This document shows positions 31,082 to 41,889 of a stretch of DNA of 64,000 nucleotides, piece after piece. The notes beneath the pieces were generated by a model. The model was not told where the DNA came from and ran no database searches. It was given only the letters and a program-made list of their open reading frames with translations. Both the position numbers and the translations under genes were made by a program. Position 1 is the first letter of the stretch. The number at the start of each line of letters is the position of its first letter. The DNA comes from Roseovarius nubinhibens ISM (lineage in GTDB: Bacteria; Pseudomonadota; Alphaproteobacteria; Rhodobacterales; Rhodobacteraceae): assembly GCF_000152625.1 (NCBI RefSeq), contig NZ_CH724156.1, positions 2,906,602 through 2,970,601 of the forward strand. The letters are read 5' to 3'.

Positions 31082-32301
31082 TGGACGGCTCCAAGGGATT
31101 TCAGGACGCGCTGACCGGCGAGCAGAAAATCCGCAATTTCAACATCAACTTCGGCCCGCAACACCCCGCGGCGCACGGGGTTCTGCGTCTGGTGCTCGAG
31201 CTGGACGGCGAGATTGTCGAACGCTGCGACCCGCATATCGGCCTGCTGCATCGTGGCACCGAGAAGCTGATGGAAAGCCGCACCTATCTGCAGAACCTGC
31301 CGTATTTCGACCGCCTCGACTATGTGGCGCCGATGAACCAGGAACATGCGTGGTGTCTCGCCATCGAAAAGCTCACCGGGGTGGAAGTGCCGCGCCGGGC
31401 GAGCCTGATCCGGGTGCTCTATTCCGAGATTGGCCGTATCCTCAACCATCTGCTCAACGTCACGACGCAGGCGATGGATGTGGGCGCGCTCACCCCGCCG
31501 CTCTGGGGCTTTGAAGAGCGTGAAAAGCTCATGGTGTTCTACGAGCGGGCCTGTGGCGCGCGGCTGCACGCGGCCTATTTCCGGCCCGGCGGTGTGCATC
31601 AGGACCTGCCCGAGGATCTGATCGACGATATCGAGACCTGGGCCAAGGCGTTTCCCAATGTGCTCGCCGATATTGACGGGCTCTTGACGGAAAACCGGAT
31701 CTTCAAGCAGCGCAACGCCGATATTGGCGTGGTGACCGAGAAGGATATTCTCGACTGGGGCTTCTCGGGCGTGATGGTGCGTGGCTCGGGTCTCGCATGG
31801 GATTTGCGCCGCGCGCAGCCCTATGAATGCTATGACGAGTTCGAATTCCAGGTGCCGGTGGGCAAGAATGGCGATTGCTATGACCGCTACCTGTGCCGGA
31901 TGGAAGAGATGCGCCAGTCGCTGCATATCATCCATCAGGCCATCGAGAAGCTGCGCGCGCCGGACGGCAAGGGCGACATTCTGGCCCGGGGCAAGATCAC
32001 CCCGCCGAAGCGTGGCGAGATGAAGACCTCGATGGAGGCGCTCATCCATCACTTCAAACTCTATACCGAAGGGTTCCACGTGCCCGAGGGCGAGGTCTAT
32101 GCCGCCGTCGAGGCCCCCAAGGGCGAATTTGGCGTCTATCTCGTGTCGGACGGGTCCAACAAACCCTATCGCTCGAAGATCCGCGCGCCGGGCTTCCTGC
32201 ATCTGCAGGCGATGGATCACGTCGCGGGCGGGCATCAGCTCGCCGATGTGGCGGCGATCATCGGCACGATGGACGTGGTGTTCGGGGAGATCGACCGGTG
32301 A
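31078..32301 (+). CDS. nuoD: NADH-quinone oxidoreductase subunit D
   Basis: A 407-residue NuoD (49-kDa subunit), which with NuoB forms the quinone pocket. Visible are [20 protein letters not shown] with the quinone-site His region, [14 protein letters not shown], and the C-terminal [20 protein letters not shown]. Start codons ATG 31078 and 31081 are adjacent; 31078 overlaps the nuoC stop. The stop overlaps the ATG of the next small gene. Confidence 0.96.
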
Positions 32302-32585
32302 TGCGGATTGTGTCGAGCGTGGCGCTGGCCCTGTGCGGCACGGCGGCCCTGGCGCAGGCTGCGCCAGAGGCGGCGCGGGTCGCGCTCTTTGCCGAGGTCG
32401 TGGCCAAGGAGCCCGCCTGCAAGGTCGACAACCGCAACCCGAGCGAGAGCTTTCTCGCGGCGATGGAACAACATGGGTTCGACAAGACCGAGACCAAGGC
32501 CATCGCGCAGGTTCTGATCGAGGCGGGCGACGCCACCTATGCCGACCCGACTTTTACACTGACAACAGGGGAGTGCGCATCGTGA
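32301..32585 (+). CDS. small exported protein of unknown function within nuo operon
   Basis: A 94-residue protein with a clear signal peptide ([20 protein letters not shown]) and a mature part of ~74 residues containing two Cys (EPACKVDN and TTGECAS), able to form one disulfide in the periplasm. The start ATG shares its A with the nuoD TGA, indicating tight coupling. I recognise no family. Its location between nuoD and nuoE in a Rhodobacterales-type operon suggests a link to complex I, though this is inference. A 21-codon reading frame (GTG 32582 to TGA 32647) fills the gap to nuoE. Confidence 0.75.
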
Positions 32586-32646
32586 TCGATCACCTGATGC
32601 AAGATGCCGCCACGCCCATGACTACGATGCACGGAAAGGCTGTCTG

Positions 32647-33960
32647 ATGCTGCGCCGTCTGTACAAAGACCAACCCGAAAGTTTCGCCTTCAGCGCGGCC
32701 AACCAGGCCTGGGCCGAGGGGCAGATTGCCAAATATCCCGAAGGCCGTCAGGCCAGCGCCATCATCCCGTTGCTGTGGCGGGCGCAGGAGCAGGAAGGCT
32801 GGCTCACCCGGCCCGCGATCGAGCATGTGGCCGATATGCTTGGCATGGCCTATATCCGGGCGCTCGAGGTTGCGTCCTTCTATTTCATGTTCCAGATGCA
32901 GCCGGTGGGCAGCGTCGCGCATTTCCAGATCTGCGGCACCACCTCCTGCATGATCTGTGGCGCCGAAGACCTCGTGGCCGTGTGCCGCGAAAAGGTCGCG
33001 CCTAACCCGCATGAGCTCTCGCCTGATGGCAAGTTCTCGTGGGAAGAGGTCGAATGTCTCGGCGCCTGCACCAATGCGCCGATGGCGCAGATCGGCAAGG
33101 ATTACTACGAAGATCTCACCGCCGAGCGGTTCGCCGAGATCATCGACGAGATGGCGGCCGGCAAGACGCCGCTGCCGGGGCCGCAGAATGGCCGCTATGC
33201 CGCCGAGCCGAAATCGGGGCTGACCAGCCTGACCGAGTTCGACAGCGGCCGCACCAAATACAATGGCTCGGTCCAGCGCGCCGCCGATATTGGCGACACG
33301 ATCAAGCGGATCGATGGCACCGAAGTGCCGCTGCTGACGCCTTGGGTGACCAAGGGCGCGATGCACAAACCGGCGAAACCCGGCAAGAACATCGCGGCAG
33401 AAGAGGGCGACACGCCTGCCAAGACCGCCAAGAAGACCGAGGCCAAGGTGACCAAAGCGCCCGCCGCCAAGGAAGCGCCGAAGGATGAGGTGTCGGACAA
33501 GGCCGCGGAGGCGCTCAGCCAAAAGCCCAAGGGCCGCCCGGCGTCGAAACCTGAGACCGCAGGCGAGGCCGCGCGCGCCGATGCGCCCGCCAAGGCCCCC
33601 AAGGCCAAAACCGCCAAGGGCGATGTGCCGATGGCCGGGACCAAGGATGGCAGGGCAGAGGGCCCCGCACAGGGCAAGAAGCCGCGCACGATGAAAGCAC
33701 CGCGCAAGGCCGGGGCCGATGATCTCAAGATGATCAAGGGCGTTGGTCCGAAGCTCGAACAGATGCTGCATGGCATGGGGTTCTATCATTTCGACCAGGT
33801 GGCGAAATGGAGCGCGGATGAGGTGTCTTGGGTCGACCAGAACCTCGAAGGTTTCAAGGGCCGGGTGAGCCGCGACAATTGGGTCGAGCAAGCCAAGCTT
33901 TTGTCGGAAGGCAAGGAGACCGAGTTCTCCAAACGCGCCAAGAAGGGGGGCGTTTACTAG
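32647..33960 (+). CDS. nuoE: NADH-quinone oxidoreductase subunit E with C-terminal HhH extension
   Basis: A 437-residue NuoE, about twice the usual length. Residues 1-~170 are the 24-kDa subunit, a thioredoxin-like fold with [2Fe-2S] cluster N1a: C96 and C101 in ICGTTSC, C137 and C141 in CLGAC. Then comes a low-complexity Lys/Ala/Pro linker (~240-355), and finally a helix-hairpin-helix module from [16 protein letters not shown] to [10 protein letters not shown]. The module recurs in the next gene product (51 of 62 residues identical). Such extensions occur in Rhodobacterales NuoE; their role is not established. Confidence 0.95.
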
Positions 33961-33986
33961 GGTAGTTTGAGTAAAGGGGAAGAGCG

Positions 33987-34694
33987 ATGACCAATGGACC
34001 GGATACGAGCAATTGCACGTTTATGTGCTGGCTGGGCGCGGGGCTTTTCGGCCTTGTGGTGAGCTATTTTGCGTGGCCGGGGGTCGGGCTGTTCCTCATG
34101 CTGCTGATCGCCTTGGGGATCGCGGTGCTAACGGGCTTTGTGCTGACCCAGCTGTTCTGCCGGGCGGCGCCGGAGGCCCCGAGGGCTGCCAGCTCTGAGC
34201 CTGCGAAATCCGAGCCGGTGAGCCGGGCGGCCGAAAGCGAAGCGGCCGCCGGGGCGGCGCTGGCCGCGGCCCCTGCGGCGGCGGCGACGGTGCCAGAGAC
34301 GGACACGGTGACGGAGACTGTAACGGAAACGGTGACGCCGGAGCCTGCAGCTGCGCCGAAGCCGGAGCCGAAACCGGAGCCGGAGGCGGCGTCCGAGGAC
34401 GACGTGGTGGTGGTTGAGAAAGTGGCGGCGGGCGATACGGGGCAGAAGCCTGCGACGCTCGAAGCGCCGCGGGCTGGCGGGGCCGATGATCTCAAGCGGA
34501 TCAAGGGCGTCGGTCCGAAGCTGGAAGATTTGCTGCACGGCATGGGCTATTACCATTTCGACCAGATCGCCCAATGGGGCGCGGCCGAGGTGGCCTGGGT
34601 CGATCAGAACCTCAAGGGGTTCAAGGGTCGGGTCAGCCGTGACAACTGGGTGGCGCAGGCGAAAACGCTGGCCGCCGAGACGGGCAATGGGTAA
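33987..34694 (+). CDS. membrane-anchored protein with HhH module shared with NuoE
   Basis: A 235-residue protein. Residues ~10-60 contain two hydrophobic segments (MCWLGAGLFGLVVSYF; LFLMLLIALGIAVLTGFVL), followed by an Ala/Pro/Glu/Thr-rich linker (TVTETVTETVTPEP) and a C-terminal helix-hairpin-helix module, [16 protein letters not shown] to SRDNWVAQAK. The module is the same as at the NuoE C-terminus. It is likely a membrane-tethered cytoplasmic HhH domain near complex I (inference). It is co-directional, 26 bases after nuoE. Confidence 0.82.
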   Translation: MTNGPDTSNCTFMCWLGAGLFGLVVSYFAWPGVGLFLMLLIALGIAVLTGFVLTQLFCRAAPEAPRAASSEPAKSEPVSRAAESEAAAGAALAAAPAAAATVPETDTVTETVTETVTPEPAAAPKPEPKPEPEAASEDDVVVVEKVAAGDTGQKPATLEAPRAGGADDLKRIKGVGPKLEDLLHGMGYYHFDQIAQWGAAEVAWVDQNLKGFKGRVSRDNWVAQAKTLAAETGNG

Positions 34695-34712
34695 CGACGG
34701 GCAAGGGTAAGG

Positions 34713-34931
34713 ATGAAGTCGAACAACAGGCAATCCCAGATGGGGCGTCAGGTGGCGCTGATCATCGCCGGCGTGGCGGTGTTCTGGGTTGTTGCGCTGT
34801 GGATCGGCGGACAGATGGGCGTGAGCCAGCGGGTGCTGGCGCTGTTCGATCTGATCGCGCTGGCGGGCTTTGTCTTTGCGTTTTGGAAGATTTATCAAAT
34901 CTGGCGCATGCGCCGGGACAATGAAGGATAG
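34713..34931 (+). CDS. DUF5337-like small membrane protein
   Basis: A 72-residue protein with two predicted membrane helices ([20 protein letters not shown] and [20 protein letters not shown]) and a basic C-terminus. Length, [13 protein letters not shown] and the position before nuoF match the DUF5337 family of Rhodobacteraceae nuo operons. Function is unknown; it could be a small complex I membrane accessory (inference). Confidence 0.78.
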
Positions 34932-34938
34932 GGGCGTC

Positions 34939-36234
34939 ATGTTGAAGGACGAGGACCGCATCTTTACCAATCTCTACGGGATGCATGATCGCAGCCTGAA
35001 GGGGGCGCAGGCGCGCGGCCATTGGGATGGCACGGCGGGCATCCTGGCGAAGGGGCGCGACTGGATCATCGACAACATGAAGGCCAGCGGGCTTCGCGGG
35101 CGGGGCGGGGCGGGCTTTCCCACCGGTCTCAAATGGTCCTTCATGCCGAAGGAAAGCGACGGGCGTCCGGCCTATCTCGTGGTGAATGCCGACGAATCCG
35201 AGCCCGGCACCTGCAAGGACCGCGAGATCATGCGCCATGATCCGCACACCCTCATCGAAGGCTGTCTCATCGCCAGTTTCGCGATGAACGCGCATGCCTG
35301 CTATATCTACATTCGCGGCGAATATATCCGCGAGCGCGAGGCGCTGCAGGCGGCGATCGACGAGGCCTATGAGGCCGGTCTGGTGGGCAAGAACGCCTGC
35401 AAGTCGGGCTGGGATTTCGACATCTATCTGCACCATGGCGCGGGCGCCTATATCTGTGGCGAGGAAACCGCTCTTCTGGAGAGCCTCGAGGGCAAGAAGG
35501 GGATGCCGCGGATGAAGCCGCCATTCCCGGCGGGCGCGGGTCTCTATGGCTGTCCGACCACGGTGAACAACGTCGAATCCATCGCCGTTGTGCCGACCAT
35601 CCTGCGCCGGGGCGCGGATTGGTTCGCGGGCTTTGGCCGTCCCAACAATGCGGGCACCAAGCTTTTTGCCATCTCTGGCCATGTGAACAACCCCTGCGTC
35701 GTCGAAGAAGCGATGTCGATCTCCTTTGAGGAGCTGATCGAGAAACATTGCGGCGGCATTCGCGGCGGCTGGGACAATCTGCTGGCGGTGATCCCCGGTG
35801 GCTCGTCCGTGCCTTGTGTGCGCGGCGAGAACATGAAGGACGCGATCATGGATTTCGACGCGCTGCGCGAGGTGGGATCGAGCCTCGGCACCGCGGCGGT
35901 GATCGTCATGGACAAGCAGACCGACATCATCAAGGCGATCTGGCGTCTGTCGAAATTCTACAAGCATGAGAGCTGTGGCCAGTGTACGCCCTGCCGCGAA
36001 GGCACCGGCTGGATGATGCGGGTCATGGACCGGCTCGTCAAAGGCGAGGCCGAGGTCGAAGAGATCGATATGCTCTTTGACGTGACCAAGCAGGTCGAGG
36101 GCCACACGATCTGTGCGCTTGGCGATGCGGCGGCCTGGCCCATTCAGGGTCTGATCCGCAATTTCCGCGATGTGATCGAGGATCGCATCAAGGCCCAGAA
36201 GACGGGCCGGGTGAGCGCGGTGGCCGCGGAATGA
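34939..36234 (+). CDS. nuoF: NADH-quinone oxidoreductase subunit F
   Basis: A 431-residue NuoF (51-kDa subunit) that oxidises NADH using FMN. Motifs are [18 protein letters not shown] (NADH/FMN), [19 protein letters not shown], and the N3 [4Fe-4S] ligands in [15 protein letters not shown] with the distal Cys in [16 protein letters not shown] 34939 begins the conserved [14 protein letters not shown]. It is seven bases after the DUF5337-like gene. Confidence 0.97.
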
Positions 36235-36283: not shown

Positions 36284-36703
36284 ATGAGCGAGCTGTTCGC
36301 CCCCTATGCCCATGCGATTGCCGCCATGGCCGGAATGGCCCTCTTGGTGCTTGTCCTGTCGCCGGTGACGGGCTGGATGAAGTCCAAGCTCGGCCTGGCG
36401 CCGGGGGCCGCGCCGGAGGCGGATTACAGCAATCCCGCCTATCGCTGGAACCGGGCCCATGGCAATGCGGCCGAAAACGCGGCGAGTTTTGCGCTGGTGA
36501 CGCTGGCGGCGATCCTGGCCGGGGCGAACCCGGTCTGGGTCAATTGGCTGGCGTCGCTCTACCTTCTGTCGCGGCTGGTGCTCTTGGTGGTGCATGTCGG
36601 CGGCATCGGCCGGGCCGATATGGGGCCGCGCAGTTTCCTGTATGTCTTCGGTTGGCTGCTTTGCATAATTCTCGGCCTGATGGCCATAATCGCGGTGGTA
36701 TAG
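36284..36703 (+). CDS. MAPEG family membrane protein
   Basis: A 139-residue membrane protein with four hydrophobic segments. NPAYRWNRAHGNAAENAASF around residues 48-67 is the typical MAPEG helix-2 signature (RxxxAhxNxxEN). MAPEG proteins include microsomal glutathione transferases and related eicosanoid/glutathione enzymes; bacterial members are mostly uncharacterised. It lies between nuoF and nuoG in the same direction, so it is probably co-transcribed. Confidence 0.78.
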   Translation: MSELFAPYAHAIAAMAGMALLVLVLSPVTGWMKSKLGLAPGAAPEADYSNPAYRWNRAHGNAAENAASFALVTLAAILAGANPVWVNWLASLYLLSRLVLLVVHVGGIGRADMGPRSFLYVFGWLLCIILGLMAIIAVV

Positions 36704-36706
36704 ACG

Positions 36707-37075
36707 ATGAAGTTGATGAAGCGTCCAGTTCTGTCCCACGGGGTTCGGGCCCACGGTTTTAAGGCCCTCGGTATTCTGGCCCTTGTCGGGCTGGCGGCCT
36801 GTGGCGGCGGCGACCGTGTGTTGTTCGACGGCAAGTATTACCCGGCCAAAGCCAAGAAGGACGGTGCGCTCGAGCGGTTCGTCGTGACCGTGCGTCGCGC
36901 CGATCAGGGGCTTGAGGGCGCGCGCGAGGCGGGGCGCTACGAGGGCACCGATTACTGCATCAAGAAATTCGGCAGCTCGACCATCGCCTGGGCCCCCGGC
37001 CCGGATGCGGACCGTGCCGCGATCCTCACCGACGGCGGCAATGTCGTGCTGCGGGGCACCTGCAACAAATGGTAG
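36707..37075 (+). CDS. putative lipoprotein within nuo operon
   Basis: A 122-residue protein with a hydrophobic signal and lipobox LVGLAACGGG (lipidated Cys at about residue 33, after a long N-terminal region). The mature domain is short and basic-acidic, with YYPAKAKKDGALERFVVTVR and a Cys pair, DYCIKKFG and RGTCNKW. It weakly resembles the lipoprotein after nuoG in overall plan (short, VxR strand, Cys). No known family is assigned. The start may lie further in, near the Leu-rich segment. Confidence 0.68.
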   Translation: MKLMKRPVLSHGVRAHGFKALGILALVGLAACGGGDRVLFDGKYYPAKAKKDGALERFVVTVRRADQGLEGAREAGRYEGTDYCIKKFGSSTIAWAPGPDADRAAILTDGGNVVLRGTCNKW

Positions 37076-37166
37076 GTTTTACCCGACATATCAGGGCTTT
37101 GACAGGCAAGAACACGCCGGTGTTATTGCATAACAGGGCTGCGGGTCTCCATCTCGGACGCGACCT

Positions 37167-37187
37167 GCCTTGCATGAAATGCAAGGC
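37167..37187 (+). promoter_or_regulatory. perfect 9-base inverted repeat inside nuo operon
   Basis: GCCTTGCAT-GAA-ATGCAAGGC is a perfect 9-base stem around three bases, in the 140-base gap before the DUF5333-like gene. There is no following T-run, so it is more likely an mRNA processing or stability hairpin, or a protein-binding site, than a terminator. The adjacent AAAGGAG serves the downstream gene. Confidence 0.6.
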
Positions 37188-37215
37188 CGGCGTGTTTGGA
37201 TCAAAGGAGACCAAT

Positions 37216-37626
37216 ATGCGACTGATCAAGACTGCCCTGCTGGGCCTCACCCTTGCCGGTGCCACCATGGCGAGCGCCTCGGCGCAGCCGGGACTGGCCA
37301 AGGAAAAGGACATCAACGCCGGGCTGCTCGTGGTGGCCGTGGCCGACAAGATCCGCCGCGAGTGCGACAGCATTTCGGCGCGGTTCTTTACCGCCCGGAG
37401 CTATGCGCAATCGCTCAAGGATATGGCGTCGGCGCGCGGCTATTCCGAGGCCGAGATCGACAGCTACATCAACAATGACGCCAACCAGGCCGCGATGCGC
37501 GAACGTCGCAACGCCTATTTCAAATCGAAAGGCGCGAGCAATCTGGATGCACAGAGCCTCTGTGTGCTGGGCCGCGCCGAAATCTCCAAGAAGAGCCAGA
37601 TCGGCTCTCTTCTGAAAGCAAAGTGA
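37216..37626 (+). CDS. DUF5333-like exported protein
   Basis: A 136-residue protein with a signal peptide (MRLIKTALLGLTLAGATMAS) and a helical mature domain: NAGLLVVAVADKIRRECDSI, SARFFTARSYAQSL, ARGYSEAEIDSYI and SLCVLGRAEISKKSQIG. Two Cys are conserved-looking. The pattern fits DUF5333, found in Rhodobacterales, often beside nuo genes. AAAGGAG precedes ATG 37216. It lies six bases before nuoG. Periplasmic location suggests an envelope or assembly role (inference). Confidence 0.8.
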   Translation: MRLIKTALLGLTLAGATMASASAQPGLAKEKDINAGLLVVAVADKIRRECDSISARFFTARSYAQSLKDMASARGYSEAEIDSYINNDANQAAMRERRNAYFKSKGASNLDAQSLCVLGRAEISKKSQIGSLLKAK

Positions 37627-41118: not shown

Positions 41119-41889
41119 ATGGGGGTGGATGTCGCTCTTTTCGACCGGCTTGTTGAGCTCTCCACGCGGTTTCAGCCGCGTGGGCGCACGCTCATGCTTG
41201 GTCGTCAGAGCTTCACGATCCAGACCCGGCATCGCAATGCCTATGACGAGTCGCTGGCCCGGCATGGCATCGACGCCCGCCGCTTTGATTTCCTGCAAGA
41301 GGATGGGTTTGCCGAAACCTTGATGGAGAAGCTTGGGTTCGGGCAGATCGAGACCATGGATTTCTCGGATTATGAAGGCGCCGCGATCCTCCATGATCTC
41401 AACAAGAAGCCCGAGCGCAAGCTGTGGAACCAGTTCGACTTTATCTTCGACGGTGGCACGGTCGAGCATGTGTTCAATGTGCCGATGGCGCTCGAAGGGC
41501 TGTACCGGATGCTCAAGCCCGGTGGCCGGCTGATTTCGGCGAACGGGCTCAATGGCTGGTACGGGCATGGCATGTATCAGTTCAACCCCGAGCTGGTCTG
41601 GACCTTCTGGCGTCGTGCCTGCAATTGCAACGTGATCGATTGCCGAGCGGTGCCTGTTGACCCGGACGACGAGTTCGGCCAAGTCGAGTTTCGGGACCCG
41701 GCCGAGACCGGTGTGCGGCTCAAGCTCAAGAACCAGATCGGCCCGGGGCGCACCTATCTCTATTACGAGGTCGAAAAGACCAAGGAGAGCCACCTGCCGG
41801 ATTTCGCGCTGCAAAGCGATTATGAGACCCGCTGGAACGGACATGAAAACGCAGGTGCGACGCACCTCGAGACGGAAACGAGGACCTGA
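41119..41889 (+). CDS. SAM-methyltransferase-like protein within nuo operon
   Basis: A 256-residue protein with a partial class I methyltransferase pattern: [14 protein letters not shown] (residues 106-119) followed by LKPGG (132-136) corresponds to motifs II-III of the fold. The usual glycine-rich motif I is not clear; [11 protein letters not shown] (22-32) occupies its place. It could be a degenerate or divergent methyltransferase. It lies in the operon between nuoH and nuoI, where it would not be expected in most bacteria. Target and activity are unknown. Confidence 0.7.

Follow-up and report, generated by a model that had tools for sequence, protein, structure and literature searches.

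The nuoE locus and its membrane-anchored neighbour

The window (the whole 64,000-nucleotide stretch of Roseovarius nubinhibens ISM DNA that we analyzed; C2:2906602-2970601) holds the nuo operon. Between nuoE and nuoF lies a second gene, hereafter the neighbour, whose product shares a C-terminal module with NuoE; the features of both genes are listed in Table 1. The NuoE core aligned with the 239-aa chain 8qby_E, which from its closeness we take to be the Paracoccus chain. Against the NCBIfam model NF009040 (PRK12373), which describes NuoE with a long C-terminal extension, the protein scored 604 bits over residues 1-435 (cut-off 514). The window NuoE is thus an ordinary member of this family, and long NuoE is already known in that form. 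The complex I entries nearest to it, 8qby and four others, have a short NuoE of 239 aa; the neighbour matched no chain of these entries at E ≤ 1, and no solved complex I with a long NuoE was found among the closest structure entries.

Table 1. Coordinates of nuoE, the adjacent protein-O homologue and their parts within the window.
Feature	Position	Strand	Size and basis
NuoE ORF	32647-33960	+	437 aa
NuoE core, residues 1-235, thioredoxin-like [2Fe-2S] subunit of complex I	32647-33351	+	Pfam 2Fe-2S_thioredx 3.1e-51; NCBIfam PRK12373
NuoE Lys/Ala-rich linker	33352-33702	+	117 aa, net charge +12; composition
NuoE C-terminal module and tail ETEFSKR..GGVY	33703-33957	+	85 residues; BLASTP, alignment; AlphaFold2 mean pLDDT 89.3, pTM 0.77
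Neighbour, homologue of RC-LH1 protein-O	33987-34694	+	235 aa; phmmer
Neighbour two-helix membrane hairpin, residues 7-58, with Cys10 (34014-34016) and Cys58 (34158-34160)	34005-34160	+	AlphaFold2
Neighbour Ala/Pro/Glu linker	34167-34469	+	101 aa, net charge -12; pLDDT mostly low
Neighbour C-terminal module, without tail in the window genome	34470-34691	+	BLASTP, alignment; AlphaFold2 pLDDT block means 92-98, residues 151-230

Elsewhere in the operon, a small protein with a signal-peptide-like start (about 32300-32585) was located between nuoD and nuoE, and a 72-aa DUF5337 protein (34713-34931; 3.3e-26) between the neighbour and nuoF. A MAPEG-family protein (36284-36703) and a DUF5333 protein (37069-37626) lay between nuoF and a nuoG-like gene, and a gene that weakly matched a class I methyltransferase model (41119-41889; Methyltransf_11, 3.2e-5) between nuoH-like and nuoI-like genes. 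A scan of 32500-35100 revealed no promoter-like site and three terminator-like sites (2.1 expected), none of them between nuoE and the neighbour.

A phmmer search of solved structures matched the neighbour to 8yy9_O (“Reaction center protein O chain”; 8.5e-37, residues 8-230) and to 9wqv_a (1.1e-41, residues 12-231). Entry 9wqv holds a reaction-centre M chain beside this second protein-O homologue, and it is therefore likewise a reaction-centre (RC) structure. Protein-O is part of the RC-LH1 complex of Dinoroseobacter shibae (PDB 8yy9); in the 2025 report, its traced part comprises only residues 8-59, a hairpin between RC and LH1 whose Cys10-Cys59 disulfide faces the cytoplasmic side (PMC12079452). 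The same paper notes the similarity of protein-O to NuoE and the position of its gene between nuoE and nuoF, and it assigns protein-O no function (PMC12079452). Accordingly, what a preliminary description of this DNA had called undescribed was, as to similarity and gene position, already in print for D. shibae. The window protein resembles D. shibae protein-O in its full-length similarity, two-helix hairpin, Cys pair, long linker, C-terminal module and nuoE-nuoF position, but differs in that its genome has no reaction-centre match and in that it lacks the tail that follows the module. Proteins U and Y of the Rhodobacter sphaeroides RC-LH1 are like the protein-O hairpin in form and place, whereas their sequences are quite distinct by the paper’s description (PMC12079452).

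AlphaFold2 predicted helices of membrane length at residues 7-29 and 35-58 of the neighbour, in agreement with the two membrane segments proposed earlier; in this model Cys10 lies close to where the first helix begins, and the second helix ends with Cys58. The Lys/Ala linker of NuoE and the acidic, Ala/Pro-rich linker of the neighbour were also borne out (Table 1), as was the reading of the neighbour as a membrane-anchored carrier of the module; its D. shibae homologue docks on a bioenergetic membrane complex, the RC-LH1, according to PMC12079452. Both Cys columns were filled in all 30 same-genus sequences, the window’s own included (a set made up of the 30 best matches and not drawn at random), and the pair was kept in 46 of the 49 named-locus homologues (exceptions L121, L140 and L162). 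The first helix also starts with a CxxxCW motif (34014-34031), the second Cys of which was kept in 25 of the 30 genus sequences; CxxxC was present in 37 of the 49 named-locus homologues. Because this second Cys is so widely kept, the three cysteines of the hairpin may lie at the same membrane face.

The preliminary description counted 51 identities over 62 C-terminal positions of NuoE and the neighbour (GADDLK to QAK; 33712-33897 versus 34479-34664), and our recount gave exactly this value. The similarity of the two modules is far above chance, since BLASTP of the full proteins (one comparison) returned 59/78 identities, 134 bits and E = 1e-41. In most relatives the common unit is longer: a TEFSxR-type tail followed the module in 28 of the 30 same-genus neighbours, the window neighbour being one of the two without it. 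The preliminary description had missed this tail in the relatives, together with a third copy of the module in the window genome, on ribosomal protein L21 (C2:3321570-3321773, 49% identity). The module is the most conserved part of the neighbour, with a mean pairwise identity of 0.78 among the 30 genus sequences (hairpin 0.52, linker 0.30) and of 0.66 in alignment A5 of 44 sequences (hairpin 0.30, linker 0.27).

Carriers of the module and occurrence of reaction centres

At least one module copy was found in 272 of 295 family genomes and in 29 of 289 genomes of the class draw, four of these 29 being from the family; among the matches listed, those with names were almost all Rhodobacteraceae or Rhodobacterales. 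Judged by these matches, the module is widespread in the family and scattered more widely in the Alphaproteobacteria. Its carriers were NuoE, protein-O homologues, L21, S2 (L220), phasin-like proteins and other membrane proteins; the names come from our reading of the N-termini unless a family search is given. The phasin naming combines a C-terminal match to NF045508 below its cut-off with the look of the N-termini; such proteins were encoded downstream of the neighbour in two loci (L087, L097) and before nuoF in four (L116, L124, L157, L170). The C-terminal parts of the models for L21 (PRK12278), S2 (PRK12311) and phasin PhaH (NF045508) matched both NuoE and the neighbour (E 4.9e-20 to 3.4e-15). 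The likeness was confined to this C-terminal tail region, and both proteins scored far under the whole-protein cut-offs. In the open-access literature we found no described role for the module, and only PMC12079452 bore on the point.

Among the membrane carriers, locus L165 encodes a single-helix protein with the module, whose gene comes after one encoding an OmpA domain together with a sub-threshold BON match; similar proteins were seen in L115, L164, L167, L169, L173 and L182. Membrane proteins in L207 and L215 bear a tandem pair of modules, which could show how modules pack.

The reaction-centre family Photo_RC (PF00124) had no match in the window genome (3.68 Mb, 99.98% complete). A role in RC-LH1 is therefore inapplicable there, and we classed the neighbour as a homologue of protein-O, not as an RC-LH1 subunit. 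Among 84 genomes of the genus, the hairpin was present in 66 and Photo_RC in 39; the hairpin was somewhat commoner alongside reaction centres (34/39 genomes with versus 32/45 without), but the difference was not significant (p = 0.11). The draw of 295 family genomes contained 94 with the hairpin and 121 with a reaction centre (both 36, hairpin only 58, reaction centre only 85, neither 116), and showed no association between the two (Fisher p = 0.53); neither p value takes kinship into account. Because sequences of a single genus were used to train the hairpin profile, distant homologues were missed and absences of the hairpin are weak evidence; its presences without a reaction centre are stronger, although a few family hits had E near 0.001. 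In three genomes (G018, G042, G048) a gene was read as the neighbour by the module query, yet gave no hairpin hit. What the present analysis adds to the D. shibae account is thus a homologue in a genome with no reaction-centre match, the lack of a hairpin-reaction centre association across the family, the retention of the Cys pair, and the module as the part of the protein under the strongest conservation. Since no reaction centre was detected in the window genome, the job of the module would be more general than photosynthesis, probably a more general tethering.

The NuoE and neighbour modules as a pair

The named loci were the best 80 of at least 559 confirmed ones, chosen by module match, so that genomes with neither module lie outside this view. 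NuoE was encoded in 71 of the 80; the remaining nine were mostly other carriers or cut contigs. In 61 of the 71, the NuoE module was scored together with one or two additional module genes; inspection adds L171, whose additional module gene overlaps nuoE. Six loci with nuoF in view (L152, L161, L166, L174, L176, L179) had the module on NuoE, no further module gene and no hairpin hit; L159 was left out of this group because nuoF fell outside the locus. The reverse was observed in L134 and L145, in which a neighbour module gene stands beside a NuoE without the module, and in L131 the hairpin-module gene lies apart from any nuoE-nuoF gap, its 10-kb locus containing neither nuoE nor nuoF. The two modules are thus separable. 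Because six loci keep the NuoE module alone and two show the reverse, an obligate handshake between NuoE and the neighbour appears unlikely from the gene content of these loci.

We also considered 28 family loci that were the best hairpin hits outside the genus. NuoE was long and carried the module in all 28, and the neighbour carried it in 25 (the neighbours of L099 and L100 were short and without it, and L083 was cut). Linkers were compared in the 28 pairs whose ends could be placed by pattern, the other pairs of the three sets being dropped. Of these parsed pairs, 26 had a NuoE linker with a net positive charge, 22 a neighbour linker with a net negative charge and 20 linkers of opposite charge, and there was no pair-by-pair compensation of charge (Spearman 0.26, p = 0.18).

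Modules of NuoE and the neighbour were slightly more alike within than between genomes (0.698 versus 0.667, without outlier L092; 1/10000 permutations). For 18 genus genomes, residue identity between NuoE and the neighbour was 0.762 in their own genome versus 0.745 between genomes (30/5000 permutations), and that between NuoE and L21 was 0.525 versus 0.515 (57/5000 permutations). Because NuoE and L21 show a similar small excess, the own-genome excess is not special to the NuoE-neighbour pair.

Gene conversion between the adjacent modules was rejected as a general explanation in these 18 genomes, where codon identity at shared residues was 0.522 within versus 0.519 between genomes (2089/5000 permutations); the NuoE-L21 control gave 0.479 within and 0.455 between. 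In the window pair, 30/46 codons were identical over the 62 residues, above the genus values, and because of this higher identity an old local conversion event is possible there. The genus tree set NuoE and neighbour modules apart with three label changes, and three neighbours, the window’s included, fell among the NuoE modules. The family tree of modules needed 10 label changes. Seventy columns are too few to resolve a single ancient duplication.

Fold and candidate partners of the module

The preliminary description had assigned the module to the helix-hairpin-helix (HhH) fold. Its AlphaFold2 model was helical, and HhH domains of RadA and NusA are among its best, though weak, structural matches; the Pfam family HHH_5 (PF14520), by contrast, stayed under its cut-off (13 bits versus 27 for NuoE, with no listed match for the neighbour), as did Cdd1 (16.3 and 14.6 bits versus 25.5). 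Foldseek found no match to the model at E ≤ 0.001, and the best weak matches were RadA (3ew9, E = 0.27) and NusA AR2 with SuhB (6ib8_C, E = 0.30). These share a similar helical fold with the module (TM 0.55 over the query; 0.55/0.70 for 6ib8_C), but at E values of 0.27-0.30 and with no sequence-level family match. Because the Foldseek matches are weak and HHH_5 is under its cut-off, the predicted structure makes an HhH type likely and no more than that. The module regions were near neutral (median net charge -1.0 and -0.5 in 28 pairs); this, together with the weak fold match to SuhB-bound NusA AR2, leads us to favour a protein ligand.

In our judgement, the breadth of carriers is best accounted for by taking the C-terminal unit common to the two proteins as a small adaptor domain that several large assemblies carry on flexible linkers. 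NuoE would present one module at the tip of the NADH arm, and the membrane hairpin, with its Cys pair at the cytoplasmic ends, would present a second on a leash. Both would most likely bind the same cytoplasmic protein partner, not each other exclusively. That partner would be an organiser or assembly factor used too by the L21, S2 and phasin-like carriers; that is, the ligand would be a protein common to the carriers, with clustering or assembly as the purpose. On this account, the protein-O found in the RC-LH1 of phototrophs would represent just one role of a protein that is older and belongs to the complex I operon. The neighbour is best regarded as a complex I operon partner that phototrophs build into RC-LH1 as well. 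Taken as a whole, this account is tentative and falls somewhat short of probable. The top Foldseek match, RadA, handles DNA, and none reached E ≤ 0.001; the GVGPK hairpin is like nucleic-acid-binding HhH motifs, and two carriers are ribosomal. The same-genome excess of module similarity (0.698 versus 0.667) is not required by a pure common-partner model. The one-genus profile leaves hairpin absences uncertain, and the hairpin is, not significantly, commoner with reaction centres in the genus (34/39 versus 32/45).

The NuoE and neighbour modules could instead bind each other, with the hairpin holding the NADH arm or guiding complex I assembly. Opposite linker charges would help such docking, and they were seen in 20 of the 28 parsed pairs (NuoE basic in 26, neighbour acidic in 22); the modules were present on NuoE in all 28 family loci and on the neighbour in 25. 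In L092 (G333), moreover, both modules are of the L21 type and alike at 57/66 residues; because only 28/54 codons are identical despite this likeness, their joint replacement is old. However, the NuoE module stands alone before nuoF in six loci, the neighbour module occurs beside a module-less NuoE in two, nuoE is missing from the 10-kb locus of the L131 hairpin-module gene, the linker charges are uncompensated pair by pair (Spearman 0.26, p = 0.18), and the module sits on unrelated carriers as well (L21, S2, phasin-like proteins and membrane anchors). Mutual docking as the main purpose was thus not supported by our data; a docking pair is possible but not obligate, and we consider this explanation unlikely. 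Binding to DNA or RNA, by which the module would tie complex I, the membrane, ribosomes and storage granules to the nucleoid or mRNA, likewise seems to us unlikely. It would fit the best fold match to RadA, a DNA-handling protein, the resemblance of the GVGPK hairpin to nucleic-acid-binding motifs, the K/A-rich linkers on NuoE and L21, and carriers that include two ribosomal proteins and a phasin family model. In contrast, the module’s median charges of -1.0 and -0.5 and the acidic linkers of 22 of 28 neighbours argue against plain DNA binding, and HHH_5 reached only 13 bits against a cut-off of 27.

Other explanations are less probable still. The module could be an address label that gathers complex I, RC-LH1 (through protein-O), ribosomes (L21/S2) and storage granules (phasin-like proteins) in common membrane territories, like-to-like or on one scaffold, and the Cys pair of the hairpin could add redox dependence; this is a speculative extension that we regard as quite improbable. 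If it were true, respiratory and photosynthetic complexes would be built and kept side by side. It is very unlikely that the unit serves as a common tag for degradation or quality control, recognised by a protease adaptor or a chaperone: it is C-terminal and linker-borne in the listed carriers, but it is large and conserved for a simple degron. An origin of the neighbour as a dedicated RC-LH1 subunit, whose copy in the window would be a relic of lost photosynthesis, is about as improbable. Protein-O is built into the D. shibae RC-LH1 between RC and LH1 (PMC12079452), and the second homologue comes from 9wqv, an entry with a reaction-centre M chain. Against a relic, the reading frame, module and cysteines of the neighbour are intact and conserved, no reaction-centre match was seen in 58 of the 94 family-draw genomes with a hairpin and in 32 of the 66 such genomes of the genus, and 85 of the 121 reaction-centre genomes of the family draw gave no hairpin hit.

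Protein-O is found in many genomes without reaction centres, and its original job may therefore lie elsewhere, most likely with complex I. One conserved domain joins the respiratory chain, a photosynthetic complex, ribosomes and phasin-like proteins, and its ligand would bear on several proteins.
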